DNA of 64,000 bases from Rhodopseudomonas faecalis (lineage in GTDB: Bacteria; Pseudomonadota; Alphaproteobacteria; Rhizobiales; Xanthobacteraceae). Below, in pieces: positions 47,421 to 62,898 of this stretch. The stretch's first letter is position 1, and each line of letters starts with the position of its first letter. The position numbers and the translations under genes are program-made. The notes below the pieces were generated by a model that was not told the origin of the DNA, searched no databases, and saw nothing but the letters and a program-made list of their open reading frames with translations. Location: positions 62,001-126,000 of the forward strand of contig NZ_QJTI01000006.1 of NCBI RefSeq assembly GCF_003217325.1, given 5' to 3'.

Positions 47421-47431
47421 GGAGAAACGAG

Positions 47432-48742
47432 ATGGTCGAGGATCGCATGACCGCCGATCTCATTGAGCTACGAAACGTCTCGCGGCTGTTTCCCAAGGGT
47501 AGCGGCGAAGACCTGGTGGTGCTGGAAGACGTCGATCTGACGCTGCGCGCCGGCGAAATCGTCGGCCTGCTCGGCCGCTCGGGCTCGGGCAAGTCAACGC
47601 TGCTGCGTATCATCGCCGGCTTGATTTCGCCGTCGGGCGGCTCGGCGCGCTGCCGCGGCCAGGACATCAACGGCCCGCCGGATGGCGTGTCCATGGTGTT
47701 TCAGTCCTTCGCGCTGTTCCCCTGGCTGACCGTGCTGCAAAACGTCGAACTCGGCCTGGAAGCGCTCGGCATCGATCGCGCCGAACGGCGTTCGCGCGCG
47801 CTGGCCGCGATCGACCTGATCGGTCTCGACGGCTATGAATCCGCCTATCCCAAGGAGCTATCGGGCGGCATGCGGCAGCGCGTCGGCTTTGCCCGCGCGC
47901 TGGTGGTTCATCCCGATCTGCTGCTGATGGACGAGCCGTTTTCGGCGCTCGACGTGCTCACCGCCGAAACGCTGCGTACCGACCTGATCGAGCTGTGGGT
48001 CGAAGGTCGGCTGCCGATCAAATCGGTGCTGATGGTGACCCACAACATCGAAGAAGCGGTGCTGATGTGCGACCGCATCCTGGTGTTTTCATCCAATCCT
48101 GGCCGGGTCGCCGCCGAGATCAAGGTCGAGCTGCCGCATCCGCGCAATCGTCTCGACCCGTCGTTCCGGCAGCTGGTCGACAGCATCTATGCGCGCATGA
48201 CGCAGCGCCCCGAGCCGCGTGCCGCGACGATTGAGGGCCTGCCCGGCACCGGCGTCGGCCTGGTGCTGAATCACATCTCCTCCAACCTGATGGCCGGTCT
48301 GATGGAGACGCTGGCGCGCGAGCCCTATAACGGCCGCGCCGACCTGCCGGTGCTGGCCGAGACCTTGCAGCTCGAAGCCGACGAATTGTTCGTGCTCGCC
48401 GAAACGCTGCAACTGCTGCGCTTTGCGCAAGTCAGCGAGGGCGACATCGTGCTGGCCGAACCGGGCCGGCGCTTTGCCGAACTCGATACCGACGCCCGTA
48501 AAAAGCTGTTTGCCGAACATCTGATCACCTATGTGCCGGTGATCGGCCTGATCCGGCGCGTGCTCGACGAGCGGCCCTCGCACACCGCCCCGGCCGCCCG
48601 GTTCCGCAACGAGCTCGAAGACTATATGTCGGAGGACTATGCCGACGAGACCTTGAAGACCATCGTGTCGTGGGGCCGCTACGCCGAGCTGTTCGCCTAT
48701 GACGAACAGTCCGAGCTGTTCAGCCTGGAAAACCCGCACTGA
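47432..48742 (+). CDS. ABC transporter ATP-binding protein with C-terminal AAA-associated domain
   Basis: 436 aa. NitT/TauT-type ATPase: Walker A GRSGSGKST, signature LSGGMRQRV, Walker B LLLMDEPFSALD and switch His in MVTHNIEEA (residues 1-260). Residues about 270-425 form the ABC-transporter AAA-associated domain (PF09821-like: VGLVLNHISSNLMAG, LFAEHLITYVPVIGLIRRVL). This extension is thought to regulate the transporter. GGAG precedes ATG 47432 closely. It drives the permease at 45687; the substrate is unknown. Confidence 0.92.
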   Translation: MVEDRMTADLIELRNVSRLFPKGSGEDLVVLEDVDLTLRAGEIVGLLGRSGSGKSTLLRIIAGLISPSGGSARCRGQDINGPPDGVSMVFQSFALFPWLTVLQNVELGLEALGIDRAERRSRALAAIDLIGLDGYESAYPKELSGGMRQRVGFARALVVHPDLLLMDEPFSALDVLTAETLRTDLIELWVEGRLPIKSVLMVTHNIEEAVLMCDRILVFSSNPGRVAAEIKVELPHPRNRLDPSFRQLVDSIYARMTQRPEPRAATIEGLPGTGVGLVLNHISSNLMAGLMETLAREPYNGRADLPVLAETLQLEADELFVLAETLQLLRFAQVSEGDIVLAEPGRRFAELDTDARKKLFAEHLITYVPVIGLIRRVLDERPSHTAPAARFRNELEDYMSEDYADETLKTIVSWGRYAELFAYDEQSELFSLENPH

Positions 48743-48844: not shown

Positions 48845-49333
48845 ATGCAGCGGATCACCATGACGCTCGACGGTGAATTGATGGACGAGCTCGATCGCTT
48901 CATCGCGGCGCGCGGCTATCAGAACCGTTCGGAAGCGATGCGCGATCTGGTGCGCGCCGGCCTGCAGCGCGAGCGCGAGGACGCCAGCGCCGCACCCGCC
49001 GCCGAGGCGCCGACCTGCATGGCGGCGCTGGTCTATGTCTACGATCATCACATCCGCGAGCTGTCGAAACGCCTCGCCCATACCCACCACGATCATCATG
49101 ATCTGTCGGTCGCAACGCTGCATGTTCATCTCGACCATGACAGCTGCATGGAAGTGGCGGTGCTGCGCGGCGACACGGCTGCGGTCCGCCACCTCTCCGA
49201 GCATGTGATCGCCGAGCGCGGGGTGCGCCATGGCCGGCTGGTGACCATTCCGGTCGATCTGCGCAGCGAGCAACACGCCCATGGCGAGCACAGCCATCAC
49301 CATCAGCACGCTTACGTCAAAGAGGCCGGCTAA
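48845..49333 (+). CDS. nikR: NikR nickel-responsive ribbon-helix-helix regulator
   Basis: 162 aa from ATG 48845 (GGGGAGG upstream). Residues 1-45 are the RHH DNA-binding arm (MQRITMTLDGELMDELDRFI), and 55-140 the ACT-like metal domain. All four high-affinity Ni ligands are visible in E. coli spacing: H82, H93, H95 and C101. The C-terminus carries a His-rich tail (about 145-155: HAHGEHSHHHQHA) missing in E. coli NikR. It is the third gene after an ABC transporter pair and convergent with tonB. Known NikR targets are nickel uptake genes; here the neighbours suggest it could also control TonB-dependent uptake, as in some other bacteria. Confidence 0.94.
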   Translation: MQRITMTLDGELMDELDRFIAARGYQNRSEAMRDLVRAGLQREREDASAAPAAEAPTCMAALVYVYDHHIRELSKRLAHTHHDHHDLSVATLHVHLDHDSCMEVAVLRGDTAAVRHLSEHVIAERGVRHGRLVTIPVDLRSEQHAHGEHSHHHQHAYVKEAG

Positions 49334-49345
49334 ACGCCGGTTCCG

Positions 49346-50194
49346 TCACCGCACCGAAAAACGCACCGGCACCGAAAAGCTCATCTGGGCATGCGGCACG
49401 TCATCGGGGAATGACGGCAGCGGCTGGGCGCGCTGGATCATCGCCATGGTCTCGGCATCGAGCGCGCCATAGCCGGATGACGACGCCAGCCTGCTGCTCA
49501 GCACCCGGCCGTTGCGCGCCACCACAAAACTCAGCATGGCCGTGCCCTGCTCGCCCGCCGCCCGCGACGCCGCCGGATATTGCTTGAAGCGCTGCAGATG
49601 CGCGGCCAGCAGCGCCCGATAGGACGGCAGCGACAGCGCCGCCTGGGCGCCGGCGACCGAGCCGGTCAGCGTTGGTGCGCTGCGCTCGGCGCGCGGCGCG
49701 GCGCTGGTGCGCGGCGCCGGCGGCTGCTCGGACTGGTGCAGCTTGGCTTCGCGCTGCCGCTTGACCGGCTTCTGACGCGCCACCTGCTGCTTGCGCTGCT
49801 CTGCGGGCTTCTCCGCAGGCTCAATCTTGTCGGCCGCCGGCAGCGTCACCACCGGCGCCGGCTGAGGCGGCGTCGGCGCTATTGCGGCCGCCGCGGCGGT
49901 GTCCGGCTCAGGCTCGGGCGGCGGTGCCGATTCCGCAGCCTGCTGCATCTCGGGTCCCGGCGCCAGATCGAGCGGCGTGGTTTGCGGCGACGCGGACGCT
50001 GGCGCCAGATCGATCAGGATCGCGGCGGTCGGCGATCCGGGCGGCGGGCTCGGCACCTGCAGCGCCAGCGCGGCGGCAACGGCCCCGGCGTGCAGGCCGA
50101 CGATCACCGCGGCCGACAACACCCAGCGCGAGGTCGCGCCGCGCTCACCCAACACATGCAGTGCCAGACAATTGCCGCCGATGGTGTTGCTCAT
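49346..50194 (-). CDS. tonB: TonB energy-transducer protein
   Basis: 282 aa. N-terminal membrane anchor (about 23-47), a Pro/Ala/Glu/Gln-rich periplasmic spacer including a Lys/Arg/Gln segment (EKPAEQRKQQVARQKPVKRQ), and a C-terminal TonB domain (about 195-282: YRALLAAHLQRFKQYPAAS, GTAMLSFVVARNGRV). It links ExbB/ExbD to TonB-dependent receptors. Its start overlaps the exbD stop by ATGA, so the two are translationally coupled. Last gene of the long minus-strand haem cluster. Confidence 0.93.
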   Translation of the reverse strand: MSNTIGGNCLALHVLGERGATSRWVLSAAVIVGLHAGAVAAALALQVPSPPPGSPTAAILIDLAPASASPQTTPLDLAPGPEMQQAAESAPPPEPEPDTAAAAAIAPTPPQPAPVVTLPAADKIEPAEKPAEQRKQQVARQKPVKRQREAKLHQSEQPPAPRTSAAPRAERSAPTLTGSVAGAQAALSLPSYRALLAAHLQRFKQYPAASRAAGEQGTAMLSFVVARNGRVLSSRLASSSGYGALDAETMAMIQRAQPLPSFPDDVPHAQMSFSVPVRFSVR

Positions 50195-50625
50195 GGCATC
50201 GCTCCACTACCTTCCAGCCCGACCAACGCCACCTTGAGATAGCCGGCGTCGCGCAGCAGGTTCATTGCCGCCATCAGCTCGCCATAGCTGACGGCCTTGT
50301 CGGCGCGCAGAAACAGCCGCTCGTCCTTGTTGCCCTTGGTGGCGCCATCGAGCGCACCAGCCAAACCCTCGCGCGCCACGATCTGTTCGCCGACCGCGAG
50401 CGACAGATCCGATCGCAGCGACACAAACACCGGCTGCTCCGGCCGCGGCTGCGGCTGCGCGGTGCTCGACGGCAGATCAACGCCGAGATCGACGGTGGCG
50501 AGCGGCGCGGCCACCATGAAGATGATCAGCAGCACCAGCATCACGTCGATGAACGGCGTGACGTTGATCTCATGCGCCTCAACCAGATCATCATCGCCGC
50601 CGCGGCGCCTCACCCATCCGGCCAT
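50191..50625 (-). CDS. exbD: ExbD biopolymer transport protein
   Basis: 144 aa. One membrane helix with the conserved proton-carrying Asp in INVTPFIDVMLVLLIIFMV, followed by a periplasmic domain. With ExbB and TonB it uses the proton gradient to energise outer-membrane haem receptors. exbB ends 4 bases upstream. Confidence 0.95.
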   Translation of the reverse strand: MAGWVRRRGGDDDLVEAHEINVTPFIDVMLVLLIIFMVAAPLATVDLGVDLPSSTAQPQPRPEQPVFVSLRSDLSLAVGEQIVAREGLAGALDGATKGNKDERLFLRADKAVSYGELMAAMNLLRDAGYLKVALVGLEGSGAMP

Positions 50626-50628
50626 GGC

Positions 50629-51435
50629 CTACCTCACCGCCCGCACCGAGCGCGTGGTCGCGCGCGTGCCTTCACGGCCAAGCATCAGCACAATCTGGGC
50701 AGCGGCATCGCCGAGCAGCGCGCGATAACCGGAAATCCGCCAGGCAAGATGGTTGTAGATCACCACCGCCGGAATCGCGGCAACGAGCCCGAGCGCGGTC
50801 GCCAGCAACGCTTCGGCGATGCCGGGCGCGACCACGGCCAGATTGGTGGTGTGCGCTTCGGAAATGCCGATGAAGGCATTCATGATGCCCCACACCGTTC
50901 CGAACAGGCCGACGAACGGCGCGGTGGCGCCGATCGTCGCCAACAGCCCGGTGCCGATGCCGATGCGCCGCGCCGCCGCGGCTTCGACCCGCTCCAGCCG
51001 CAGCAGCACCCGTTCCTTGAACTCGGCGCTCTGCACCACGCCCGACGACAGCCGGGCTTCGCGCCCGACCGTCCGGATCATCTCGGCAACCGCGTCGCTC
51101 GCCTCGCCGCAATCCGTTTCGGCCTGTTCGAGGCTGCTGTCGCTTTCCAGTGAACGCAGCCGGCCGCGCGCCAAGGCCAGCTCGCGGTGCAGCTCGATCG
51201 ATTTGGCCAGCCACACCGTCCATGCCGCCAGCGAAGCTGCCGCCAGTCCGACCATCACCACTTTCACCACCACATCGGCATTTTGGAACATGCCCCATGG
51301 CGACAAATCGCGCGGCAGCGACGCCGCATCCGGCGCCGCCGCTGCCGATGTCGCGGTAAGGCCGAGCAGCACGATCACCGCGCTGGTCATTGCTAGCTGT
51401 CGCCGCGCAGCGATCAGCTGATTGCGCCCCGTCAT
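50629..51435 (-). CDS. exbB: ExbB biopolymer transport protein (MotA/TolQ/ExbB channel)
   Basis: 268 aa from ATG 51435. Hydrophobic N-terminal signal-like helix (about 10-33), then three membrane helices of the MotA_ExbB domain with LLATIGATAPFVGLFGTVWG and the C-terminal VAAIPAVVIYNHL. The extra N-terminal helix matches ExbB rather than TolQ. A 68-residue longer frame upstream has no translation signals and overlaps hutX. Confidence 0.94.
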   Translation of the reverse strand: MTGRNQLIAARRQLAMTSAVIVLLGLTATSAAAAPDAASLPRDLSPWGMFQNADVVVKVVMVGLAAASLAAWTVWLAKSIELHRELALARGRLRSLESDSSLEQAETDCGEASDAVAEMIRTVGREARLSSGVVQSAEFKERVLLRLERVEAAAARRIGIGTGLLATIGATAPFVGLFGTVWGIMNAFIGISEAHTTNLAVVAPGIAEALLATALGLVAAIPAVVIYNHLAWRISGYRALLGDAAAQIVLMLGREGTRATTRSVRAVR

Positions 51436-51457
51436 CTCCGGCACATCCTTATCGTCG

Positions 51458-51976
51458 CTACGCCGCTTGCTTGGCTTCCAGGCTGGCCGCCAGCGCTCTG
51501 AACTGCGCGAGCTGGTCGGCGCGCAGCTCCTTGGCTTCGTCGCGGCCGACAAACACCTTGAACATGATGCCGCCGTGCTGATTGAGGAACGCGATGAACG
51601 CGGTGGCCTTGCCCATGAACGGCCGCTCCACAAAGGCAATCGCCGCGCAATTGTCGTGACGGAGGTGACCGTGCAGTCCCTTGGGCTGCATCAGATTGAA
51701 GTAACCGCGCGACAGCTCGCCAGGCGGCACGCTGCCGGTGAATTCAAAGATCGCGTCGTCAGTGTGCACGATCAGAGTCACCTCGCCCCAGCCGGAGATT
51801 TCCTCCATCACCGTGGCAAAGGCTTCGCCGAGTGCGAACTTCACCATGCCGGCCGGCAGCGCTTCCAGCACCGCCCGCGGTGCAATCTGGCGTTCCTTGG
51901 CCACCTCCTCGATCACCGCGCCAGGGCGCTGCGCCAGATAGGTTTTGAGATCAGCCAGCGTCGTTTCGGTGGTCAT
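51458..51976 (-). CDS. hutX: HutX/ChuX-type cytosolic haem carrier
   Basis: 172 aa from ATG 51976 with AGGGAG nine bases upstream. HutX/ChuX family: VMEEISGWGEVTLIVHTDDA, IFEFTGSVPPGELSRGYFN, GHLRHDNCAAIAFVERPFMGKATAFIAFLN. In Vibrio and E. coli these proteins bind haem and pass it to a partner enzyme (HutZ, or after HutW/ChuW). It sits between the haem oxygenase-like gene and exbB in the minus-strand haem operon. Confidence 0.93.
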   Translation of the reverse strand: MTTETTLADLKTYLAQRPGAVIEEVAKERQIAPRAVLEALPAGMVKFALGEAFATVMEEISGWGEVTLIVHTDDAIFEFTGSVPPGELSRGYFNLMQPKGLHGHLRHDNCAAIAFVERPFMGKATAFIAFLNQHGGIMFKVFVGRDEAKELRADQLAQFRALAASLEAKQAA

Positions 51977-51999
51977 CGTTATTTCTCCCTGCATTATGG

Positions 52000-52335
52000 T
52001 CAGGCCGCAGCGTCGGCTTTGGACTCGGAACGGATCACCTCAAAGCCCTCAAAGCGCGGATGGCCGAGATAGAGGCTCTCGCCACTGTCATTGCCGGCGC
52101 GGGCATGGGACCGGCGGAATTGTTCAGAGCTGGTCCAGGCTTCAAACGACGCCTTGTCGGCCCAGCTGGTGTGAGTGGCATACAGCGTGTGATCGTCGAG
52201 CGTTGGCCCCTTGAGCAGCCGGAATTCGATGAACCCTGCCATGTCGTTCAAATACGACTCGCGCGTCCGCCAGATCGCCTCGAAAGTCGGCTCCGCGCCG
52301 ATCCGCACCTGAAATCGGTTCATGGCAATGTACAT
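52000..52335 (-). CDS. IsdG/HmuQ-type haem oxygenase (ABM domain)
   Basis: 111 aa from ATG 52335 (GGAGG four bases upstream; a GTG one codon earlier has none). Antibiotic-biosynthesis monooxygenase fold. The catalytic triad of IsdG-family enzymes is present at the expected spacing: N6 (MNRF), W67 (FEAWTSS) and H77 (RRSHARAG). In rhizobia the related HmuQ/HmuD proteins open haem with O2 and release iron. It lies 23 bases from hutX, downstream of the haem receptor. Confidence 0.9.
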   Translation of the reverse strand: MYIAMNRFQVRIGAEPTFEAIWRTRESYLNDMAGFIEFRLLKGPTLDDHTLYATHTSWADKASFEAWTSSEQFRRSHARAGNDSGESLYLGHPRFEGFEVIRSESKADAAA

Positions 52336-52419
52336 CACGCCTCCTTGCTTGCTGCTTGCTATTATCCGCTGGCTATGCAGCGCCGCCGCCGGTGATCGGC
52401 GGCGGCACTCCGTATTTGA

Positions 52420-54744
52420 TCAGGCGCCCCCAAAATGCACTCTCAGGCCGCCCTTGTAGACAATGCCGGGACCGGGGCTGCTGAACAGCACGTCGTTCTG
52501 GGTCGAACCATCAACTGACGACCCCGGGATCGCATAAGGCCGGTAATACGCGTTCAGCAGGTTATCGATCGAGAAGTTGAGCGTGATATCGGCGGTCGGC
52601 CGATAGGCCACGTTGAGATTGACGAGGTCATAGGCGGTCGACGGCAGATAGCCCGGAATGGTCGGTGTAGCCGCGTACGACGCCCATTGCGCGGCGATCG
52701 TCAGTTGCCGGTCGAGCAGCCGCACGCCGCCGCCGGTGACGATCTTGCGCGGCTGCACGGTGGCGAGCGCGACGCCGGTTTCGACATTGTTGCCTTGCTG
52801 CCAGGTGCCGGTCACGCCGACAAACCACATGCCGGCATCATAGGCGGTCTCGAACTCGACGCCTTCGATCCGCACCTGGGGGATGTTCTGGTACTGATAG
52901 AACTTGCTGTACATGCCGAACATGGTGGCCTGCGGTGCCGAGCCCACCATCTCGATATAGTCGTCGACGTCGTTGCGGAACACGTTGATCTTGCCGCGCA
53001 ACGTGTCGCCTGCGGCGAAGACGTCGTTGTATTTCAGGTTGACGCCCGCTTCCTTGTTCTTGCCGACTTCCGGACGCAGGCCCGGATTGGGCAACAGGCA
53101 GAACAGCGCCGCGCGGCCATCCGGGCAGATGAAGATCGGCGGACCGCCGCCGGTCGAGTGGCTGCCGGTCACCAGCGTTTCGGTGATCGACGGCGCGCGA
53201 TAGCCTTCGGCATAGCTGACATAGGGCGTGACGCCGGCGAGCGGCGTGACGCCGATCGTGATCTTCGGCGACAGCCGGCTGCCGCTGGCGCTGGTGGTCA
53301 GCGATGACAGCTCATAATGGTCGTAGCGCGCCGCGCCGATCACTTCGAGCCAGTTGGCGTAATTGTTCTTGAGCTGCACAAAGCCGCCGGACACGGTGCG
53401 TTCGCCGCTCGGCGTGGTGACGTTGGAGTTGCCGCGCGAATCCGTGGTCTTGACGCTGTCGTTGAAGGCATCGACGCCATAGGTGACCGCGGTGCGCCAA
53501 TCGCCGAACTGGAAGCGGCTGGTGTTGTTGGCATCAATGCCGATGGTGTCGAGCAGATAGCTGCGCTTGTCGCCGATACAGCCGGAAATGTTGTTGCCGT
53601 AATTGCCGGGGCCGCAATAGGACGAGCCGCTGGTGGAATAATGATAGGTCTTGGTCTGGTCGTTGTCGGTGCGATTGCCGTACAGATTGACGTTCCAATC
53701 GAACCAGGTGTCGTCGGGCTTGGCGTAGCGCCAGGAGATCGTGCCGGTCGAATTGCGGACATTCGAGGCATAGACCGACGAGCCCTGATACAGCGCGCGC
53801 TGCGCCGCGGTCAGCACCGGGCCGCGGTTGAACTGGCCCATGTTGTAATCATAGTCCTGATAGAGGCCGCCGAATTTGATCTCGTGGCCGTCGGCCGGGC
53901 GCACCGTGAACTTCATCAGGCCCGCGGCAATGTCGTTGCCGGTGTTGCCGATCTCGGTGCCGGCACCATCCTTGTAGTTGCCCTGGGTGCGATAGACCGC
54001 GCCGCCGAACACATCGACGGTGGGATCGACGCGCACGCCGCCGAAGATCGACCCGAGCCCGCGCGCGTTGTTGGAGCCGTAAGAACCGGCCATATCGACG
54101 CCCCAGCGCTCGCCGGGACGCACCACGTCATTGATGTCCTTGGTGCGGAGCGACACCACGCCGCCGATCGCGCCAGAGCCAAAGATGTTGGCGCTCGGGC
54201 CGCGCACCACATCGACGCCGCCGATCAGTTCCGGATCGAGGAAGAACGAACCCTGGGCATGATGGCCGGAGCGCTGATAGTTCTGGCGCGCGCCATCGAC
54301 CACCACGGCGACCCGGCCGAAATCCTGCAAACCGCGGATGTTGATCGAGCTGGAGGCATCATCGCCGCGATCCTGGAACGACACGCCGGGCATGGCGGTG
54401 AACACGTCCTGCAGGCGCTTGGGCTGAATGCCCTGGATCTGTTCCAGGGTGACGACGCTGACCGGCGCCAGCGCGTCGATCGCCTTCTCTTCGCTCTTGC
54501 TGGCGACGATGGTGATGGCATCGAGCGATTGCTGGCTCGGCTGGCCGACCTGCGCATACGCGCGCTCGAACCGGCTGTGCGCGGCGGCCTGTTGCGGCTG
54601 CGCTTCGGCCGGCCTCAGTTGCTTCTGCTTCTTGGACGGCTGCGACGGCGTGGCCGCACTCTGCGCATGGCTTTGCGCTGCCGTGAGCGCAATCACCGAA
54701 ACGGAAAGGACCAGCGCTCGCGCGCCATTGTTCAACACCAGCAT
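52420..54744 (-). CDS. hmuR: TonB-dependent haem/haemoprotein receptor
   Basis: 774 aa from ATG 54744 (GGGG six bases upstream; a GTG 14 codons earlier is poorly placed). Signal peptide (about 1-28, SHAQ), a Gln/Pro-rich linker, TonB box-like ITIVASKSEEK, plug domain (about 90-230, INIRGLQDFGRVAVVVDGARQNYQ), and a 22-strand barrel. Haem-receptor features: YRAP (variant of FRAP) and NPGLRPE (variant of NPNL), with a His between them in GSHSTGGG, and a Cys pair in the loop. C-terminus ends near VHFGGA. It transports haem across the outer membrane using TonB. Confidence 0.92.
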   Translation of the reverse strand: MLVLNNGARALVLSVSVIALTAAQSHAQSAATPSQPSKKQKQLRPAEAQPQQAAAHSRFERAYAQVGQPSQQSLDAITIVASKSEEKAIDALAPVSVVTLEQIQGIQPKRLQDVFTAMPGVSFQDRGDDASSSINIRGLQDFGRVAVVVDGARQNYQRSGHHAQGSFFLDPELIGGVDVVRGPSANIFGSGAIGGVVSLRTKDINDVVRPGERWGVDMAGSYGSNNARGLGSIFGGVRVDPTVDVFGGAVYRTQGNYKDGAGTEIGNTGNDIAAGLMKFTVRPADGHEIKFGGLYQDYDYNMGQFNRGPVLTAAQRALYQGSSVYASNVRNSTGTISWRYAKPDDTWFDWNVNLYGNRTDNDQTKTYHYSTSGSSYCGPGNYGNNISGCIGDKRSYLLDTIGIDANNTSRFQFGDWRTAVTYGVDAFNDSVKTTDSRGNSNVTTPSGERTVSGGFVQLKNNYANWLEVIGAARYDHYELSSLTTSASGSRLSPKITIGVTPLAGVTPYVSYAEGYRAPSITETLVTGSHSTGGGPPIFICPDGRAALFCLLPNPGLRPEVGKNKEAGVNLKYNDVFAAGDTLRGKINVFRNDVDDYIEMVGSAPQATMFGMYSKFYQYQNIPQVRIEGVEFETAYDAGMWFVGVTGTWQQGNNVETGVALATVQPRKIVTGGGVRLLDRQLTIAAQWASYAATPTIPGYLPSTAYDLVNLNVAYRPTADITLNFSIDNLLNAYYRPYAIPGSSVDGSTQNDVLFSSPGPGIVYKGGLRVHFGGA

Positions 54745-54959
54745 GACAGCCCCGGTTGTTCTGAGTTTTGAGGCTGGCGGGCTCACCTCCTGCGAGGCAG
54801 CTGGCTGGCAGTTTGCGATCAGCGATTGCCAATCGTTCGCATTTTGCTAACCAATCGCGCCGGCACCGTCAATCGCAGTTCGCGTGAGATTAAAGCGATT
54901 ATAGATGCCGGCTGCGGGTTGCTGCGCGGCACGCTGGCGCCGCACAGCCGATGATCGTC
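54745..54959 (-). other. Short gap between the receptor and reductase genes
   Basis: 215 bases without a gene. No terminator-type hairpin is visible, so transcription from the hutW side could continue into the receptor gene, though a separate promoter is possible. Confidence 0.35.
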
Positions 54960-55619
54960 TCAGAGCTGAAACTCGCGCAGATCGGCGGGTTCCAGCGGCA
55001 GCGTCGTGCGATCGACGGTGGCGAGCACGCGCTTGATGGAACCGGGCGCGTCCAGACACTTCAACACCATCTCGGCCAGATCGGCGCGGTTGATCCGGCC
55101 ATGGACGCGCGGGTCCTCATAGAGCGCGCCATTGCCGGTCGGTTCGCCCTCGGTCAGGCCGCCCGGCCGGATGATGGTCCAATCAAGATCGAGCGCACGC
55201 AAATGATCTTCGGCGCGGGTCTTGGCCTCCAGCACTGGGCCGATCGCGGCGATGATGCGCTCCGACGCATAGGCCCGGCTATCGCCGCACGCCAGCGACG
55301 ACACTTGCAGCACCCGGCGCACGCCGCAGGCCGCCGCGGCATTGCTGATCGCGTTGTTACCGTCCTCATCGACCATGCGCCGTTCGCTGGGTCCCGCGCC
55401 GACCGTGGAAATGATCACATCCGGCACCAGCGCGCGCACCGTGCTCACCACCTGTTGGTCATCGAACAAATCAAGCGCCACGGCATCAGCGACGCCCTGC
55501 AGCGCCTGCAGCCGGGCTTGATCGCGCCCTGCGGCCAAAACCTGCAGGCCACGCGCGGCGGCCATTGTGGTCAGATGCTGACCGGTGCGGCCGGTCGCGC
55601 CAAAAATCAGAACCTTCAT
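54960..55619 (-). CDS. NAD(P)H-dependent reductase, BLVRB/ChuY-like
   Basis: 219 aa, NAD(P)-binding Rossmann fold with VLIFGATGRTGQHL at the N-terminus, VISTVGAGPSE, the motif region RVLQVSSLACGDS and TIIRPGGLTEG. This matches the biliverdin-IXbeta-reductase-like group (human BLVRB, E. coli ChuY). ChuY reduces anaerobilin, the product of ChuW/HutW. The position directly after hutW, 40 bases apart, supports such a role. A general SDR function for another substrate cannot be excluded. Confidence 0.82.
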   Translation of the reverse strand: MKVLIFGATGRTGQHLTTMAAARGLQVLAAGRDQARLQALQGVADAVALDLFDDQQVVSTVRALVPDVIISTVGAGPSERRMVDEDGNNAISNAAAACGVRRVLQVSSLACGDSRAYASERIIAAIGPVLEAKTRAEDHLRALDLDWTIIRPGGLTEGEPTGNGALYEDPRVHGRINRADLAEMVLKCLDAPGSIKRVLATVDRTTLPLEPADLREFQL

Positions 55620-55659
55620 GCTGGGTAAACAACTCCAATTCGATCGATAAAGCGAGCGA

Positions 55660-57087
55660 TCACGGACAACCGCGAGGGGTAATCACCGGCGGCGAACTGT
55701 CCAGCCCCGCCGACAGGCCGCTGGTGAGATTGCCGATCCAGAACGCCCCTGCCCGGCTCGGCACGAAACTGTTGTGATTGAGTTCGCCAAGCCCCGCTTC
55801 AGTCCAATTGGCAAGCAGCGGCGCCACGGCGGCGCGGAACCCGGGACGCAGCGCTTCGACCGCGGCGAGATCGAGCTGCCCGGCCTCGAGCCCGGCGGCG
55901 ATGGCGGCATGCGCGCCGTGATGCGTTGGCACCAGCGCCAAGCCCTCGACCGGCGCACGGTGCTCGGCCAGCATCTGCCGGCGCTCAGCGACATTGATGA
56001 CGTTGCGCCAGCGATAGCCATGAGCCTGACCGCCAGCTCCCGGCCCAAACGGCAGGCAGGGCGCACCGCGCTTGATTGAGGAATTGTAGCGATTGCGCTC
56101 GCGCTGTGACTTCACCATGTGCGACTGCGAGACTTGCAGCCAGCCATAGGCTTCCAGCCGATCGACCGCGTCGGCATAAGCGCGCGCCTGCACCGCGATG
56201 CCGGCCTGGGCCGGCAGCTTGCCGCTGGCGATCGCGCGCGACAGCGGACCGCCCGGGAACACGTTGAGCGCATAGAGCGTGACGCCATCGAGCCCGATGT
56301 CATTGACGGTCTCGATATCGCGCCGCCAATCTTCGGCGCTCTGCCCCGGCAGGCCATACATCAGATCGCACACCACCACGGTGCGATCGAGTGCCACCAG
56401 CTCAGCCAAGAACGCCTTGACGTCGTCGCCGTTCAGCTTGCGGCCGAGCCGCCGACGCACTTCGCTGGCAAAGCTCTGCACGCCGATCGACAGCCGCGTG
56501 ACGCCGGCATCGGCAACCGCGATGGCTTTGGAGGGCGCAAATCCGAAGGAACGACCCTCCATGGTGATTTCGCAATCTGGCGCGAGCGGCAGATAATCGT
56601 GCAGCGCCCGCACCAGCCGCGCCATCTGATCTTCCGGCAGCGCCGACGGCGTGCCGCCGCCGATATAGACCGCATCGATCGGCGCCGACGCGACCAACGC
56701 CGTGTCAGCCTTGCTGGCAAGCTCGGCGATGACATCATCCACATAGTCCGCCGCCACCTCCGGCCGCCAGACATTTTGGAAGAAGCCGCAGAACAGGCAG
56801 TGGTTCTGACAATACGGCACGTGCAGATAGGCGACCGCGGCCTGTTCGCGCGGTGTCGCATAGATTTCATGCAACACTGCATCGACATCATCCGCTTCGA
56901 CCGGGCGACTGCCGCGCCACGGCGGCGAGAACGATCGCTTGGCAAAGGCTTCCGTCAACGGATCACAGCCGACCCGAACCAAATAATCGGCGATCCGCGG
57001 CGGCTCCATGCTGCCGGGATGGTGATGAAATTTCGGCTTTGCCTGTGCAGCCGCGCTACTGACACCGCTCGCGTCACTCATCCGCAC
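55660..57087 (-). CDS. hutW: HutW/ChuW-type radical SAM haem-opening enzyme
   Basis: 475 aa. Radical SAM cluster motif CxxxCxxC as CQNHCLFC (C93, C97, C100), IGGGTPSAL, MEGRSFGF, LSIGVQSF and a HemN-like C-terminus. The HutW/ChuW group is a relative of HemN that opens haem without O2 by methyl transfer, giving anaerobilin and free iron. The genomic context (haem receptor, hutX, hmuP-hmuTUV) favours HutW over HemN. Start GTG 57087 has AGGGGG upstream; ATG 57081 is possible. Divergent from hmuP. Confidence 0.92.
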   Translation of the reverse strand: MRMSDASGVSSAAAQAKPKFHHHPGSMEPPRIADYLVRVGCDPLTEAFAKRSFSPPWRGSRPVEADDVDAVLHEIYATPREQAAVAYLHVPYCQNHCLFCGFFQNVWRPEVAADYVDDVIAELASKADTALVASAPIDAVYIGGGTPSALPEDQMARLVRALHDYLPLAPDCEITMEGRSFGFAPSKAIAVADAGVTRLSIGVQSFASEVRRRLGRKLNGDDVKAFLAELVALDRTVVVCDLMYGLPGQSAEDWRRDIETVNDIGLDGVTLYALNVFPGGPLSRAIASGKLPAQAGIAVQARAYADAVDRLEAYGWLQVSQSHMVKSQRERNRYNSSIKRGAPCLPFGPGAGGQAHGYRWRNVINVAERRQMLAEHRAPVEGLALVPTHHGAHAAIAAGLEAGQLDLAAVEALRPGFRAAVAPLLANWTEAGLGELNHNSFVPSRAGAFWIGNLTSGLSAGLDSSPPVITPRGCP

Positions 57088-57402
57088 TCACGCCCCCTTG
57101 CGAAGTGATGAGCACGCCCGATCGTCTCCGCCGCCTGCCTTACAGACGCGCGGATCCGACAGGCCGATCTGTCATCACGCCCGATTGCATCAATTCGTTT
57201 GAAAGGCTGGCGGGCGCTGCCGAAGGCAGGAAGCTAGCTGGCTGAAGACGCACCACGACCAAGGCGTTGCGTCACAACGAGACTTACGCCGCAGTTTCGA
57301 ACGTCTCAAGTTCAACAGTCGCTCTTTATAGTGATTATAAGATACATTCCCGGATCACGGCCTATAAAGGAACGAGTTCGTTTCACTGACAATGACAGGC
57401 GC
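57088..57402. promoter_or_regulatory. Divergent control region hutW / hmuP
   Basis: About 315 bases without a gene between the two arms of the haem locus. It contains the inverted repeat listed separately at 57326-57340. Promoters for both directions should be here. I could not identify -35/-10 boxes with confidence. Confidence 0.6.
57326..57340. promoter_or_regulatory. Inverted repeat, candidate iron/haem-responsive operator
   Basis: TTATA-gtgat-TATAA, two 5-bp arms with a 5-nt spacer, in an AT-rich island in otherwise GC-rich DNA, 63 bases before hmuP. It only loosely resembles the Irr-bound iron control element of rhizobia (TTTAGAA...TTCTAAA-type). Irr or a related Fur-family regulator is an inference. 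Confidence 0.45.
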
Positions 57403-57609
57403 ATGACTGCATCTTCCGACAATCCGCCGCTGACAACTAACTCGGCGGCCTCCTCCAGCTCCCGCGTCACCCGCAGCGTTGCGGTGACCGGCAACGAAAT
57501 CAATAGCCGCGACCTGTTCTGCAGCGACCGGGAACTTGTTATCGCCCATGGCGGCGACCGCTACCGGCTGCGCCTGACATCGCAGAACAAGCTGATCCTG
57601 ACCAAATGA
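57403..57609 (+). CDS. hmuP: HmuP haem uptake protein
   Basis: 68 aa from ATG 57403. The HmuP C-terminal pattern is clear: INSRDLFCSDRELVIAHGGD then YRLRLTSQNKLILTK. In Bradyrhizobium HmuP is needed for haem uptake and acts as a co-activator of the haem receptor gene with Irr. It is the first gene of the plus-strand arm, 16 bases before hmuT. A longer frame reaching 57331 lacks support. Confidence 0.9.
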   Translation: MTASSDNPPLTTNSAASSSSRVTRSVAVTGNEINSRDLFCSDRELVIAHGGDRYRLRLTSQNKLILTK

Positions 57610-57625
57610 TCGCCGTTGCAATTGG

Positions 57626-58597
57626 ATGCGCGCACTGATGAAGCATTGTTCGAAAACCAACGCCGCGCTCGCCGCCGCGCTGTTGTGCGTGATCGCCAGC
57701 GCGCCAAGCGTCGCACGCGACATCACCGTCCAAGGCGCACATGGCCGCACGCTGACCATCACTGATAGTTCGCGCACCGTGTCGATCGGCGGCGCAATCA
57801 CCGAAATCATGGTCGCGCTCGGCGTTGGCTCGAAATTGGTCGGCATCGATTCGACCAGCACCTTTCCGCCGGACGCCGTCAAAGGCAAAGCCAATGTCGG
57901 CTATCTCCGCCAACTCTCTGCCGAGGGCGTCATTGGATTACGTCCAACCCTGATCGTGGCGATGGATAGCGCCGGGCCGAAGCAGGCCGTGCAAGCGTTT
58001 GAAGCGGCGCAAATCCCGCTGCTGCAGGTTCCAGAGGATTTCTCTGAAAAAGGCCTTTTGGACAAGATCGCCTTGATCGGCCGCGCCATGGACGCCGAGC
58101 CGGCCGCGTCCTGCCTGGCGCGCGCGGTCGCGCAGGATTTCGACTATCTGCGCCAGCTGCGTAGCAAGGTGACCAAGCCGGTGCGGGTGATGTTCGTGAT
58201 GTCGCTGGTCAACGGCCAGGCAATGGCGGCCGGCAACAACACCGCCGCCAATGAAATCATCGCGCTGTCGGGCGGCGTCAACGCTATCACCGACTATGAT
58301 GGCTACAAGACCATCAACAATGAAGCGATCGTCGCCGCCAAGCCGGACGTGGTGCTGACCATCAAGCGCGACAAGGATTCGTTCGAGTCAGCCGCGTTCT
58401 TCGCGCACCCCGCTTTCGCCCTCACCCCCGCCGGCGCCAACAAGGCGTTCATCTCGATGGATGGCCTCTATCTGCTCGGCTTTGGTCCGCGCACGCCGAC
58501 CGCCGCGCGCGAGGTCGCCACCAAGCTCTATCCGCAGCTCGCGGCGCCATCGGTGCCATCGCACGCGCTGCGCGCCGAACAAGAGTGCCGGCCATGA
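57626..58597 (+). CDS. hmuT: HmuT periplasmic haem-binding protein
   Basis: 323 aa. Signal peptide (about 1-30, SVA), PF01497 periplasmic-binding fold. The haem-family motif is NVGYLRQLSAEGVIGLRPTL, with Tyr93 as the likely axial haem ligand. It delivers haem from the receptor to HmuUV. Two start Mets (57626, 57638) are possible. It overlaps hmuU by 4 bases. Confidence 0.92.
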   Translation: MRALMKHCSKTNAALAAALLCVIASAPSVARDITVQGAHGRTLTITDSSRTVSIGGAITEIMVALGVGSKLVGIDSTSTFPPDAVKGKANVGYLRQLSAEGVIGLRPTLIVAMDSAGPKQAVQAFEAAQIPLLQVPEDFSEKGLLDKIALIGRAMDAEPAASCLARAVAQDFDYLRQLRSKVTKPVRVMFVMSLVNGQAMAAGNNTAANEIIALSGGVNAITDYDGYKTINNEAIVAAKPDVVLTIKRDKDSFESAAFFAHPAFALTPAGANKAFISMDGLYLLGFGPRTPTAAREVATKLYPQLAAPSVPSHALRAEQECRP

Positions 58598-59691
58598 CCG
58601 CGATCGACCTCGGCCATCGTCGCAGCAGTAGCACCGTCGGCCGATCGCTGCGGCCGCGCGCAGGCCTGGTGCTAGCGACCTTGGCGCTGCTGCTGGTCGT
58701 GGTTGCGGCCGCGGCGCTGACAGTCGGCGCCGCCGGCATTCCGCTCGATCGGCTGCCGGCTGCGCTGCTCGCGCGCGGCGATGCCATGCTCGATCCGCAG
58801 CTCGCCCGCGATCAGCTGGTGCTGTGGACCATTCGGCTGCCGCGCGTGCTGATCGCGGCGATCGTCGGCAGCCTGCTCGCCACCGCCGGCGCCTTGATGC
58901 AGGGGCTGTTTCGCAATCCGCTGGCCGATCCGGCGCTGGTCGGCGTCGCCAGCGGCGGCGCGCTGGCGGCAGCCGCCTCGATTGTGCTGATCGATCTGTC
59001 GCTAGGCGCCAGCCTGCACTTCATGCAGGACCAGATTCTGCCAATCGCGGCGTTTGTCGGCTCGCTTACCACTACTGTACTGCTGTATCGCATCGCCAGC
59101 CGCGAAGGCCGCACCTCGATCGCGCTGTTCCTGCTCGCCGGCATCGCCATTGCCGCGATCGCCAATGCCGGCATCGGCGTGCTGGTGTTCGTCGCCGATG
59201 ACCGGCAACTGCGCGACATCACCTTTTGGATGATGGGTTCACTGAGCGGCGCGACCTGGAGCAAAGCGTTCACCACCGCGAGCGTGCTGGCGGTCTCGCT
59301 GCTGTTGCTCGTGCGGCTGGGCCGCCAGCTCGACCTTTTGGTGCTGGGCGAAGCCGAAGCGTTCCACAGCGGCGTCGATGTCGAACGCTTGAAAATGCTG
59401 TCGATCCTGATGGTGTCGGCGATGACCGGCGTCGCGGTGTCGGTGTGCGGCGTGATCGGCTTTGTCGGCATCGTGGTGCCGCATCTGCTGCGGCTGTTGA
59501 TCGGGCCCTCGCATCGGCTGCTGCTGCCAGCCTCCGCGCTGCTCGGCGCGGTGATGCTGGTCGCGGCTGATACGCTGGCGCGCACCATGGTGGCGCCAGC
59601 GGAAATGCCGATCGGCATTCTCACCGCCGCGATTGGCGCGCCGTTCTTCCTCGGACTGCTGTTGCGGCAGCGCAAGCTGGTGGGGCTATGA
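58594..59691 (+). CDS. hmuU: HmuU haem ABC transporter permease
   Basis: 365 aa, FecCD-type permease with about ten membrane helices: RLPRVLIAAIVGSLLATAGALMQ, GLFRNPLADPALVGVASGG, and VVPHLLRLLIGPSHR near the coupling helix. Start ATG 58594 overlaps the hmuT stop by ATGA. It forms the inner-membrane haem channel with HmuV. Confidence 0.94.
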   Translation: MTAIDLGHRRSSSTVGRSLRPRAGLVLATLALLLVVVAAAALTVGAAGIPLDRLPAALLARGDAMLDPQLARDQLVLWTIRLPRVLIAAIVGSLLATAGALMQGLFRNPLADPALVGVASGGALAAAASIVLIDLSLGASLHFMQDQILPIAAFVGSLTTTVLLYRIASREGRTSIALFLLAGIAIAAIANAGIGVLVFVADDRQLRDITFWMMGSLSGATWSKAFTTASVLAVSLLLLVRLGRQLDLLVLGEAEAFHSGVDVERLKMLSILMVSAMTGVAVSVCGVIGFVGIVVPHLLRLLIGPSHRLLLPASALLGAVMLVAADTLARTMVAPAEMPIGILTAAIGAPFFLGLLLRQRKLVGL

Positions 59692-60479
59692 GCGAAGTGC
59701 TGCGCACCAATGCGGCGTCATTTGCCATTGCCGGCAAGACGCTGCTCGATCGCGTCGATCTGTCGATCGACGCCGGCGAACTGATCGCGATCGTCGGCCC
59801 GAACGGCGCCGGCAAATCGACGCTGCTGCGGCTGTTGTCCGGCGATCTGCGCCCGAGCAGCGGCGCGGTTCAGCTGCGCGGCAAGGATTTGTCAGGCTAC
59901 CCCGCGCGCGAATTGGCGCTGCGCCGCGCCATGCTGGCGCAGCACGTCAATGTCAGCTTTCCGTTCACGGTCGAGGAAGTGGTGTGGATGGGCGCCGGCG
60001 AGTTTGAGCGCGCCCGCGCCGCACCCTTCGTCGAGGCGGCGCTGCGCGAAGTCGGCCTTCAGGAGTTCCGCAGCCGCACCATCACCACGCTGTCGGGCGG
60101 CGAGCAGCAGCGCGCGCATTTCGCCCGCATCCTGGTGCAGTTGTGGGGCAGCGAAGCCGGCCATGGTCCCGGCATCCTGCTGCTCGACGAACCGACTTCC
60201 AGCCTCGACATCCGCCATCAGCTCGATCTCGCCAACACCGCACGGCGCTGCGCCCGCAACGGCACCACGGTGATCGCGATTCTGCACGATCTTAATCTGG
60301 CGGTGCGCTTTGCCGATCGCATCATCGTGCTGCATGGCGGCACAATCGCCGCCGATGGCGCGCCGATGCAGGTGATGCAGAATGCGGTGATCGACCGGGT
60401 GTTCGACGTCGAGCTCGCCATTCAGCTCGATGGCACTGGGCGGCCGTTCGTGCTGCCCGAACTCGCCGGCGTCGCCTGA
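59688..60479 (+). CDS. hmuV: HmuV haem ABC transporter ATP-binding protein
   Basis: 263 aa. Walker A GPNGAGKST, signature LSGGEQQRAHFARIL, Walker B ILLLDEPTSSLD, switch His in AILHDLNLA. FecE-like ATPase that powers HmuU. The start overlaps the hmuU stop by ATGA; the stop lies within a 10-bp hairpin. Confidence 0.95.
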   Translation: MSEVLRTNAASFAIAGKTLLDRVDLSIDAGELIAIVGPNGAGKSTLLRLLSGDLRPSSGAVQLRGKDLSGYPARELALRRAMLAQHVNVSFPFTVEEVVWMGAGEFERARAAPFVEAALREVGLQEFRSRTITTLSGGEQQRAHFARILVQLWGSEAGHGPGILLLDEPTSSLDIRHQLDLANTARRCARNGTTVIAILHDLNLAVRFADRIIVLHGGTIAADGAPMQVMQNAVIDRVFDVELAIQLDGTGRPFVLPELAGVA

Positions 60480-60507: not shown

Positions 60508-62088
60508 TTAGCGCGCCAGTTTCAGCAGCGCATCGAGATCGAGATTCTGCTCGCAATGATCGGCGAGCGCTTCCAGCGCCTCTTCGACACGCTGCTCGAA
60601 CGCCAGCCCAGCCGCTTCCGCGCCGATCTGCTTCAGCCATGCCGAGCGGAATTGATCGCCGCCAAAGATGCCGTGCAGATAGCCGCCCATCACCCGGCCA
60701 TTGGCCGAGACCGCGCCTTCCGGCTGAAGCTTGCCGCTACCGTCATCGAGCAGCAGCCACGGCTTTTCCAGGCCGGCGCCGGTGGTACGGCCCATATGCA
60801 TTTCATAGCCGCGCACCCGGCAGCCGCTGCGTTGATCGAAGGCATCGACGTCGACCAGACGCTTATCACCCGAAATCTCGGTTTCGAGATCGAGCAGCCC
60901 AAGCCCCTGGGTTTCGCCCGGCGCACCTTCGATGCCCATCGGATCGCGCACCACGCGGCCCAGCATCTGGAAGCCGGCGCACAGGCCGACCACCCGGCCG
61001 CCGCGGCGCACATGGGCAAGAATGTCGATGTCCCAGCCTTCGCGGCGCATCAGATCGAGTTCGCTGCGCGTGGTCTTCGATCCCGGCAGCACGATCACGT
61101 CGATATTGGCGGGGATCGGCGAGCCCGGCTGAATCCATTGCAGGTCGATATCGGGCTCGGCCACCAAGGGATCGAGATCGTCGAAATTGGCAACGCGCGC
61201 GAGCCGCGGCACCGCGATCTTGATGCGGCCACGGCTTGCCGCCGCCGCGCGCTCCAGCGCCAGCGAATCTTCCGCCGGCAGCCGGTCCGCGCCGGGAAAC
61301 CAGCGCAGCACGCCGAGGAACGGCCAGCCGGTCTGTTCGGTGATGGTGCGGCAGCCCGGCTCGAACAGCGAGAAATCGCCGCGGAATTTGTTGATCAGAT
61401 AGCCGACCACGCGGGCGCGATCGCCCTCATTGAGCAGCACATAGCTGCCGACCAGTGCCGCCATGGTGCCGCCGCGGTCGATGTCGGACAAAAACACCAC
61501 CGGCAGATCGGCGGCTTCCGCAAAGCGCATATTGGTGATGTCGGAGGAGCGCAGATAGACCTCGGCGCCGCTGCCGGCGCCCTCCACCAGCATCAGATCG
61601 GCCTCCGCCGCCATGCGCTCAAAACTGTCGACCACCGCCGGGATCAGCCGCTGGCGCATGTGATGATAGATGCGTGCCGGGCAATTGCCGAGCACGCGGC
61701 CGCGCAGCACCACCTGCGAGCCGATATCGGTCTGCGGCTTGAGCAGCACCGGGTTCATGTGAATCGACGGCGCCGCTTTGCAGGCGCGCGCCTGCATCGC
61801 CTGGGCGCGGCCGATCTCGCCGCGCGGCCGCTCACCGTCCGGCCCGGGCGGCAGATCGGAGTCGCTGGCGACCGCGGCGTTGTTGCTCATGTTCTGCGCC
61901 TTGAACGGCCGCACCACCAGCCCGCGCCGGGTGTAGGCGCGGCACAGGCCGGCGACCACCATGCTCTTGCCGACATCCGAACTGGTGCCCTGGATCATCA
62001 GCGATCGGGCGCGGCGCGGCCCGCTCTCGGTGCGCGGCGTGAATTGGATGCGGGAAATCAGTTCGGAGACGTCAGGGGTCGTCGTCAT
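60508..62088 (-). CDS. cobQ: Cobyric acid synthase
   Basis: 526 aa. Amidates adenosyl-cobyrinic acid a,c-diamide at positions b, d, e and g using glutamine and ATP. N-terminal P-loop region (LMIQGTSSDVGKSMVVAGLC), FKAQNMSNNAAV, and a C-terminal glutamine amidotransferase domain with Cys in GLCAGFQMLG and His in GGYLHGIF. Start ATG 62088. It follows cobS on the same strand with a 51-base gap. Confidence 0.96.
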   Translation of the reverse strand: MTTTPDVSELISRIQFTPRTESGPRRARSLMIQGTSSDVGKSMVVAGLCRAYTRRGLVVRPFKAQNMSNNAAVASDSDLPPGPDGERPRGEIGRAQAMQARACKAAPSIHMNPVLLKPQTDIGSQVVLRGRVLGNCPARIYHHMRQRLIPAVVDSFERMAAEADLMLVEGAGSGAEVYLRSSDITNMRFAEAADLPVVFLSDIDRGGTMAALVGSYVLLNEGDRARVVGYLINKFRGDFSLFEPGCRTITEQTGWPFLGVLRWFPGADRLPAEDSLALERAAAASRGRIKIAVPRLARVANFDDLDPLVAEPDIDLQWIQPGSPIPANIDVIVLPGSKTTRSELDLMRREGWDIDILAHVRRGGRVVGLCAGFQMLGRVVRDPMGIEGAPGETQGLGLLDLETEISGDKRLVDVDAFDQRSGCRVRGYEMHMGRTTGAGLEKPWLLLDDGSGKLQPEGAVSANGRVMGGYLHGIFGGDQFRSAWLKQIGAEAAGLAFEQRVEEALEALADHCEQNLDLDALLKLAR

Positions 62089-62139
62089 GAAACAACTCGG
62101 GGTCAGATGGGATGATGGATTGTCAGGAATGAGGATGCG

Positions 62140-62898
62140 TCAAATCAGGGCGGCGACACCGAGCAGCAGGCCGATTTCCGCCATTTGCTCGGTCGCGCCC
62201 AAAATGTCGCCGGTGTAACCGCCGAGCAGCTTCTGCGCCGCCAGGATCGGCAGTGTCGCCAGCAGCACCGCGAACACGGCGCCAAGCAGCGCGGACCACG
62301 GCGCCAAGGCAAGCAGCGCGCCAAAACCGAGCATGGTGAAGGCGAGCGTGATCACGACGCCAGCCATCGACAACCGCTGCTGCGGATAATCGAGTTTGGC
62401 GGTGTCTAGATTGCCGCCATAGGGCAGCAGCGTCATGCCCGCCGTGACGCCGGCGCGGCCGATACTATGCGCCGCCACCAGCGCGGCGGCGGCAATCGGC
62501 ACCGGCAGGCTGGCAAGCAGCGCGATGCGCAGCGCCAGCGAGAATGCCAGCGCCAGCGCGCCATAGGTGCCGATCCGGCTGTCCTTGATGATGGTCAGCC
62601 GCTGTTCGCGGCTGCGGCCACCAAAAAGCCCGTCGGCGGTGTCAGAGACGCCGTCCTCGTGAATGCCGCCAGTCAGCGCCACGCCAACCCCGACCGCAAT
62701 GATCGCCGGCACCGCGCCGGACCAGAACAGATCGGCGATCAGCAGCGCGCCAGCGCAGGCGGTGCCGATCAGCGCGCCGACCAGCGGAAAGTATTTTGCC
62801 GATTGCAGCCAATCGCCGTCGATCCGCGTCGCCGCGGGGGTCGGCACGATGGTCATGATCTGCACGGCCTGGAAGAACGGTCGCGAGGTCGCCATCAC
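62140..62898 (-). CDS. cobS: Adenosylcobinamide-GDP ribazoletransferase (cobalamin synthase)
   Basis: 252 aa, an integral membrane protein with about six helices (called cobV in the aerobic nomenclature). Motifs: GALIGTACAGALL, GGIHEDGVSDTADGLFGGRSREQRL with the metal-binding Asp cluster, and IKDSRIGTYGALAL. It joins alpha-ribazole(-phosphate) to adenosylcobinamide-GDP. The start overlaps the cobT stop by ATGA. Confidence 0.95.
   Translation of the reverse strand: MMATSRPFFQAVQIMTIVPTPAATRIDGDWLQSAKYFPLVGALIGTACAGALLIADLFWSGAVPAIIAVGVGVALTGGIHEDGVSDTADGLFGGRSREQRLTIIKDSRIGTYGALALAFSLALRIALLASLPVPIAAAALVAAHSIGRAGVTAGMTLLPYGGNLDTAKLDYPQQRLSMAGVVITLAFTMLGFGALLALAPWSALLGAVFAVLLATLPILAAQKLLGGYTGDILGATEQMAEIGLLLGVAALI

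Follow-up and report, generated by a model that had tools for sequence, protein, structure and literature searches.

A haem uptake locus of Rhodopseudomonas faecalis that joins HmuQ- and HutW-type ring-opening enzymes, with similar control regions before hutW and the receptor gene

We analysed a 64,000-nucleotide stretch of the Rhodopseudomonas faecalis genome (contig NZ_QJTI01000006.1, positions 62,001 to 126,000; hereafter the window), which contains a haem uptake locus of twelve open reading frames at positions 49346-60479, eight on the minus and four on the plus strand. Leftward run hutW-chuY and then hmuR-hmuQ-hutX-exbB-exbD-tonB, and rightward hmuP-hmuT-hmuU-hmuV. On the left side tonB and exbD overlap by 4 nt, and the gaps exbD-exbB, exbB-hutX, hutX-hmuQ and hmuQ-hmuR measure 3, 22, 5 and 84 nt; in the middle, 173 nt separate hmuR (counted from a GTG start) from chuY, 40 nt chuY from hutW, and 315 nt hutW from hmuP; on the right side hmuP and hmuT are 16 nt apart, hmuT and hmuU overlap by 13 nt, and hmuU and hmuV by 4 nt. 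A first-pass annotation of this DNA had described twelve haem genes on two divergent strands in this interval, and its frames, strands and spacings were borne out; the products that it had named (receptor, TonB/ExbB/ExbD, HmuTUV, HmuP, HmuQ, HutW, HutX and a ChuY-like reductase) agree with the profile matches, that of HmuT being the weakest. The locus is not a chance arrangement, since the same gene set recurs in relatives.

Curated cut-offs were exceeded by ten of the twelve genes, the exceptions being chuY and hmuT. The TonB-dependent haem receptor is encoded by hmuR (52420..54744, minus strand; TIGR01785, 640.7 bits, cut-off 316.85); its listed frame reaches GTG 54786, and ATG 54744 is the more likely start because GTCATG and a signal-peptide-like beginning are kept at this position across the genus. 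The energy-transducing proteins are encoded, likewise on the minus strand, by tonB (49346..50194; TIGR01352, 69.9 bits, cut-off 27.1), exbD (50191..50625; TIGR02803, 212.3 bits, cut-off 152.95) and exbB (50629..51435; TIGR02797, 298.6 bits when scored from one codon upstream, cut-off 206.2), the start of the last being corrected to ATG 51435. On the plus strand lie hmuP of the hemP family (57403..57609, with the start placed at 57403; PF10636, 62.8 bits, cut-off 25), the permease gene hmuU (58585..59691; PF01032, 294 bits, cut-off 26.5) and hmuV for the ATP-binding protein (59688..60479; NF010068, 313.5 bits, cut-off 261). HmuP ends in KLILTK, and the KLILXK motif of HemP/HmuP is named in PMC9241770. 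The periplasmic haem-binding protein HmuT (57626..58597, plus strand) is the weakest assignment: it reached no NCBIfam cut-off, its matches being ABC substrate-binding proteins that include the haem-binding IsdE (54.4 bits), and it is named from this relationship and its operon position. Scans of the window yielded no Rfam family above threshold and no tRNA.

The first-pass annotation had also read into the locus two ring openers that differ in oxygen requirement, HutW working without oxygen and an IsdG-type enzyme dependent on it, and at the level of protein families the sequences support this prediction. HutW (55660..57087, minus strand; TIGR04107, 516.6 bits, cut-off 400) belongs to the radical SAM (S-adenosylmethionine) anaerobic haem-degrading enzymes, and the cysteines of its CX3CX2C cluster motif (C93, C97, C100) are invariant in all 20 aligned sequences, which comprise 17 of the 18 from the family (L091, cut short, was left out) and three of six from elsewhere in the phylum. 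HmuQ (52000..52335, minus strand), an IsdG/HmuQ-type haem-degrading monooxygenase, exceeds the NF053649 cut-off by a narrow margin (142.8 against 130 bits) and weakly matches the solved IsdI structure 2zdp (E 0.0009, residues 1-80). Its N6, W67 and H77, which we take to correspond to the catalytic Asn-Trp-His of IsdG, are invariant in 15/15 aligned sequences and also present in L079, which accounts for all 16 copies in the window and in the hutW loci that were fetched. The cytosolic haem carrier HutX (51458..51994, minus strand) scores 200 bits with TIGR04108 (cut-off 110) and has the PDB relatives 2ph0, 2hqv and 2ovi ChuX. For the ChuY-like anaerobilin/bilin reductase (54960..55619, minus strand; PF13460, 132.1 bits) no NCBIfam model scored above cut-off, and the best solved relatives are 5guy ChuY (E 6.8e-25) and 5ffq ShuY (E 9.6e-24). 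According to section 5.4 of PMC12670364, the iron-sulphur cluster of ChuW is inhibited by oxygen, and HutX supplies HutZ with air and HutW without air. Some related HutW proteins (L076, L077) carry His/Gly-rich N-terminal stretches (HGGHGGHHG), possibly a metal- or haem-binding tail, and hutW of Brucella thiophenivorans (L131) matches as two pieces, perhaps because the gene is broken or was poorly sequenced.

The genes hutW and hmuR are preceded by control regions of the same kind. An element resembling the published HPRE (HmuP-responsive element), composed of GCCAGCYAGC, a variable segment and GCCCGCCAGC, lies on the minus strand in the leader of hmuR (54764..54814) and in that of hutW (57197..57247). 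GCCAGC[CT]AGC occurs twice in the window, at these two places, and the element precedes both genes in 7/7 genomes of the genus examined. An A+T-rich operator-like motif stands before hmuR (54889..54903) and between hutW and hmuP (57325..57339), again across the genus; of the 14 operator places in the seven genomes, 13 fit WTTAWAGYRATTRTA exactly and the remaining one (L078) differs from it by a single mismatch. Operator and element are 71-84 nt apart, in a single orientation relative to the gene, in all 14 leaders, and a TTGA box between them, which may be a -35 element, is conserved in 7/7 genomes on each side.

A covariance model (R1) built from 20 copies of the element was searched against 1.31 Mb from 94 sources. 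It gave 22 matches of at least 39 bits, 15 before hmuR and seven before hutW, and none elsewhere; 20 of these are the training copies, among them both window elements (55.4 bits before hmuR, 55.5 bits before hutW), and two (L085 and L088) had been held out. The element before hmuR of L089 scored 23.6 bits, which is not above chance because the best match in a further 1.18 Mb of the host genome reaches 27.7 bits; that match (L185) lies antisense inside a reading frame and was discarded. In 43 loci from named genomes the best R1 match reached only 17.3 bits. The GCCAGCC repeats resemble the HPRE of Chromobacterium violaceum chuR as printed in PMC9131926, where HPREs are described for haem receptor genes with reference to Amarelle 2019; PMC9241770 describes the HPRE as a plain direct repeat. 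An HPRE-like element before hutW was not found in print in the searched literature, which covered few subscription papers, and no paper joining HmuP with hutW was among the top-ranked matches listed, where one on HmuP and chuW might rank lower.

Paired GCCAGC repeats, found post hoc, stand 10-15 nt apart and 17-49 nt before hmuQ in 7/46 loci (L049, L055, L064, L076, L077, L086 and L087), against a background of 0.8% among 120-nt windows drawn at random from these loci; 33/46 loci have no copy there. Those of L064 and L087 are weak R1 matches (17.6 and 21.4 bits), and HutW is lacking from the source genomes of three of the seven (G071, G052 and G078). This simpler form comes nearer to the direct repeat of PMC9241770 than the full element does, and its presence suggests that HmuP-type control may extend to hmuQ in some relatives.

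Within the element, the variable segment folds on itself in the majority of copies: 13/18 distinct segments beat 95% of their mononucleotide shuffles (mean z -2.6; this test did not include L089, where the element departs from the search pattern). Counted from the stem base, pairs 1 to 5 are standard in 49/55 cases in hmuR elements and 28/28 in hutW elements, while controls with slid partners gave 20/54, 22/49 and 23/59 standard pairs for hmuR and 1/24, 7/30 and 12/22 for hutW. Pair 1 of the hmuR elements is C-G in six, A-U in three, U-G in two and mispaired in one (n=12). Counting against a stem, pair 6 holds in only 3/6, and the outer arms hardly vary. The element is likely, if not proven, to form an RNA stem. 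Alternatively, these elements might be DNA sites or attenuator hairpins unconnected with HmuP, which we regard as possible but rather doubtful. A DNA site would suit HemP/HmuP as the DNA-level activator reported in PMC9131926 for Bradyrhizobium japonicum and Burkholderia multivorans. It would also suit two further results that speak against the stem: four folded 61-nt whole elements did not exceed their shuffles in stability (z 0.30, 0.39, 1.35 and -0.08), and stem arms swapped among hmuR elements still pair at 80%, compared with 88% observed, 55 of 2000 swaps reaching the observed value. It agrees less well with an inner segment that pairs with itself despite differing sequence, with standard pairs far above the slid-partner controls, or with the resemblance of the repeats to the published C. 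violaceum HPRE (PMC9131926).

The operator motif is rare in the host genome (4,065,356 bases, 62 contigs): with one mismatch allowed, TTAWAGYRATTRTAA occurs at three places in the whole 4.07 Mb, two of them at this locus, and the reversed control gave no match. The third place (C37:16588) is probably due to chance; the genes near it, named by eye, code for an ABC substrate-binding protein of the branched-chain type and for a protein resembling formyltransferases. The Irr-associated iron control element (ICE) has the consensus TTTAGAA-N3-TTCTAAA. Dyads with at most three mismatches to it are present in the hmuR-hmuP gap of 8/9 loci from other genera (L082-L088 and L090, not L089), 14 sites in all, and are paired at a distance of 31-32 nt in six loci (L083-L088); outside those gaps, among 17 loci and the window, they occur only in L075 (two sites). 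Irr is encoded in the host genome (NF045678, 218.9 bits, cut-off 150). We call the operator sites ICE-like, with Irr as the putative protein acting on them. A second ICE-like site at 57295 (five mismatches) was dropped because it overlaps the conserved TTGA box.

Because hutW and hmuR carry the same kind of control region, their leaders suggest that the two genes are switched on together. On this basis we consider it probable, with appreciable room for doubt, that iron and haem signals induce import and both ring openers jointly and that oxygen selects the route chemically. Several results count against such joint control by Irr and HmuP. The window's operator sites fit the ICE consensus only with four and five mismatches. 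In other genera none of the 11 loci (G069 included through L026) has an R1 element before hutW. The window's own hmuQ, unlike that of some relatives, lacks the paired GCCAGC repeat, having one copy only. Finally, when the stretches between operator and element of hutW and hmuR were compared in the seven genomes, 199, 203, 223, 65, 97, 24 and 38 of 300 shuffles reached the observed score. Since these stretches are without clear similarity, we make no claim that the hutW leader arose by promoter duplication, an origin that has no support beyond the two motifs.

A different possibility is that oxygen determines which of the two routes is expressed, hutW-chuY being induced in its absence by an FNR/FixK-, Reg/Prr- or PpsR-type regulator. 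Because hutW-chuY has a leader of its own, separate control is conceivable, and the host, which has two photosynthetic reaction-centre genes (with one classical haem oxygenase gene about 7 kb from them), is by its gene content a phototroph, for which life with and without oxygen is therefore plausible. We searched for FNR/FixK-type and PpsR-type patterns, neither of which exceeded background in the leaders. No FNR/FixK box with at most two mismatches lies in the hmuR or hutW leader; the sole match there with three mismatches is the operator itself, and the window has 193 such matches. Between 54700 and 57500 only one PpsR-type TGT-N12-ACA was found (55698, inside hutW), the whole window containing nine. 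Together with the receptor-type elements in the hutW leader, this makes oxygen-dependent induction unlikely in our view. The first-pass annotation had proposed that the cell switches route with oxygen supply: a switch through enzyme chemistry seems likely, whereas neither of the oxygen-responsive DNA patterns searched for was found to back it. Since the leaders have no FNR/FixK box of at most two mismatches, such a switch need not involve gene control.

The gene identities, their conservation, the two leader elements and the constant spacing within the leaders are established here, and they allow a model of joint induction with chemical selection to be outlined. Haem would be imported by HmuR, TonB-ExbB-ExbD and HmuTUV. 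With oxygen it would be cleaved by HmuQ; without oxygen HutW would use radical SAM chemistry to open the ring, and the linear product would be reduced by ChuY. HutX probably delivers haem to both HmuQ and HutW, for which section 5.4 of PMC12670364 offers a precedent. Two transcription units are predicted, hutW-chuY and hmuR-hmuQ-hutX-exbB-exbD-tonB, whose leaders appear to be built alike (an ICE-like operator, the TTGA box and then the HmuP-responsive-type hairpin element), so that iron and haem status, presumably via Irr and HmuP, would induce import and both ring openers jointly. Oxygen would then pick the route by what HmuQ and HutW each need or tolerate.

The distribution of the enzymes was surveyed in 149 genomes of the window's family (its own genome included), presence being scored as a profile match above cut-off. 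HmuQ was found in 101 genomes, HutX in 58 and HutW in 18, and the sets are nested: all 58 genomes with HutX have HmuQ, and all 18 with HutW have both (Fisher p, uncorrected for kinship, 0.0008 for HutW with HmuQ and 6e-9 for HutW with HutX). In 44 genomes, among them 34 of the 40 HutX genomes that lack HutW, HutX and HmuQ are found within 1 kb of each other, and all 45 such pairs share a strand; the distance between HutW and HmuQ is at most 10 kb in 15/18 genomes, the two being 17 kb apart, 1.5 Mb apart or on separate contigs in the remaining three. Given this nesting, HmuQ-HutX looks like the older partnership in the family, later joined by HutW. That HmuQ is far commoner than HutW means that it has a role without HutW, and this fits a further view without any oxygen-based division, according to which HmuQ chiefly serves to protect from excess haem or to feed signalling, iron being released mainly by HutW, or the reverse. 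The classical haem oxygenase gene near the reaction-centre genes, by which ring opening has other uses in the host, would fit it too. The position of hmuQ between receptor and carrier genes in the uptake operon is at odds with this view, which we hold to be improbable.

Beyond the family, HutW was found in 7/299 genomes of a phylum sample, where only the window's own genome also has HmuQ, and in 1/337 genomes of a class sample (again the window's own), where HmuQ is present in 44. A scan of named genomes returned at least 80 hutW loci; 43 (L095-L137), some shortened by contig ends, were analysed and 37 (L138-L174; 26-36% identity over part of the query) were left out. Among the matches listed, a ChuY-like gene lies near HutW in nine of the 43 (L095, L096, L100, L102, L103, L105, L107, L109 and L131) and HmuQ in one (Pseudovibrio flavus, L098). 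By these counts HutW with ChuY is the widespread pair and HutW with HmuQ the rarer one.

A comparison of hutW neighbourhoods, which the first-pass annotation had proposed for Nitrobacteraceae, showed that the core set recurs within the family and that its order differs between genera. Five of the six relatives from the same genus (L076-L081) have all twelve genes in one cluster; in L078 no tonB, exbD or exbB was found within the stretch fetched. In other genera hutW stands behind hmuV (L082-L085, L088, L089), ends the hmuR operon (L086, L087, L090) or, in L075, faces hmuTUV with hmuQ-hutX beyond. No ChuY was found in these ten loci of other genera, and L091 begins inside hutW. The placement of hutW-chuY between hmuP and hmuR is, among the family loci compared, confined to the window's genus. 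HutX copies beside hmuQ (L055, L061, L066, L067, L075, L086 and L087) and that of L090 share 57-66% identity with the window's HutX, and those beside hutW behind hmuV (L082-L085, L088, L089) only 41-44%; there seem to be two HutX lineages, HutX having been exchanged while HutW stayed alike.

Directly adjoining tonB is the nickel regulator gene nikR (48845-49333; NF002815, 196.2 bits, cut-off 83), and cobQ, cobS and cobT homologues of cobalamin synthesis (60508-63956) adjoin hmuV on the opposite strand. The region 45639-48742 encodes an ABC permease of double length (593 aa) and an ATP-binding protein extended at its C terminus, both nearest to nitrate/taurine types and below the cut-offs shown.

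Work on oxygen-free haem degradation has dealt for the most part with pathogens and gut bacteria, and a phototroph with both routes in one locus would permit a clean test of the division of work between them. The shared leader offers a handle on the disputed target of HmuP (DNA or RNA) and on its reach beyond receptor genes.

The first-pass annotation knew of no described system with this exact set. We likewise found no paper naming the twelve genes together; the claim is tempered by a principle that is already in print and by a core combination that recurs in 18 of the 149 family genomes. Nor did a paper containing both hutW and hmuQ emerge from the searched literature, limited in its subscription papers as stated above; PMC10404700 presents haem uptake clusters that include HmuW, a homologue of HutW, and lists HugZ in a figure legend. 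The closest parallel is hutWXZ of Vibrio cholerae, in which, as here, oxygen-dependent and oxygen-independent openers share one HutX carrier and adjoin uptake genes (PMC12670364, PMC6018153). Unlike that system, the present locus has IsdG-type HmuQ in the place of HutZ, HmuP and HPRE-like leaders, and a ChuY-like reductase, which V. cholerae lacks according to the text of PMC10035031. Another alphaproteobacterium, Hyphomicrobium denitrificans, also has anaerobic haem-degradation genes (ChuW-ChuX-ChuY; PMC12423496), but the word HmuQ does not occur in the main text of that paper. HutW, HutX and ChuY have their relatives in ChuW, ChuX and ChuY of the Escherichia coli O157:H7 chu locus. To our knowledge that locus has no HmuQ, which is present here, and in the window hutX is separated from hutW and adjoins hmuQ, whereas the order hutW-hutX-chuY is seen in the enteric loci L100, L102 and L103 and in L094. 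With B. japonicum, whose layout we take to be hmuVUT-hmuR-exbBD-tonB with HmuQ and HmuP, the locus presumably has the uptake genes, HmuQ, and HmuP with Irr in common. As in the HPREs of Ensifer meliloti shmR and C. violaceum chuR, GCCAGCC repeats lie just upstream of the receptor start (PMC9131926, which prints the chuR sequence); in the window a second copy precedes the enzyme gene hutW, and a predicted hairpin separates the repeats. The locus thus combines a known principle (Vibrio hutWXZ; ChuWXY) with HmuQ and HmuP, in a variant that occurs only in some members of one family among the genomes compared.

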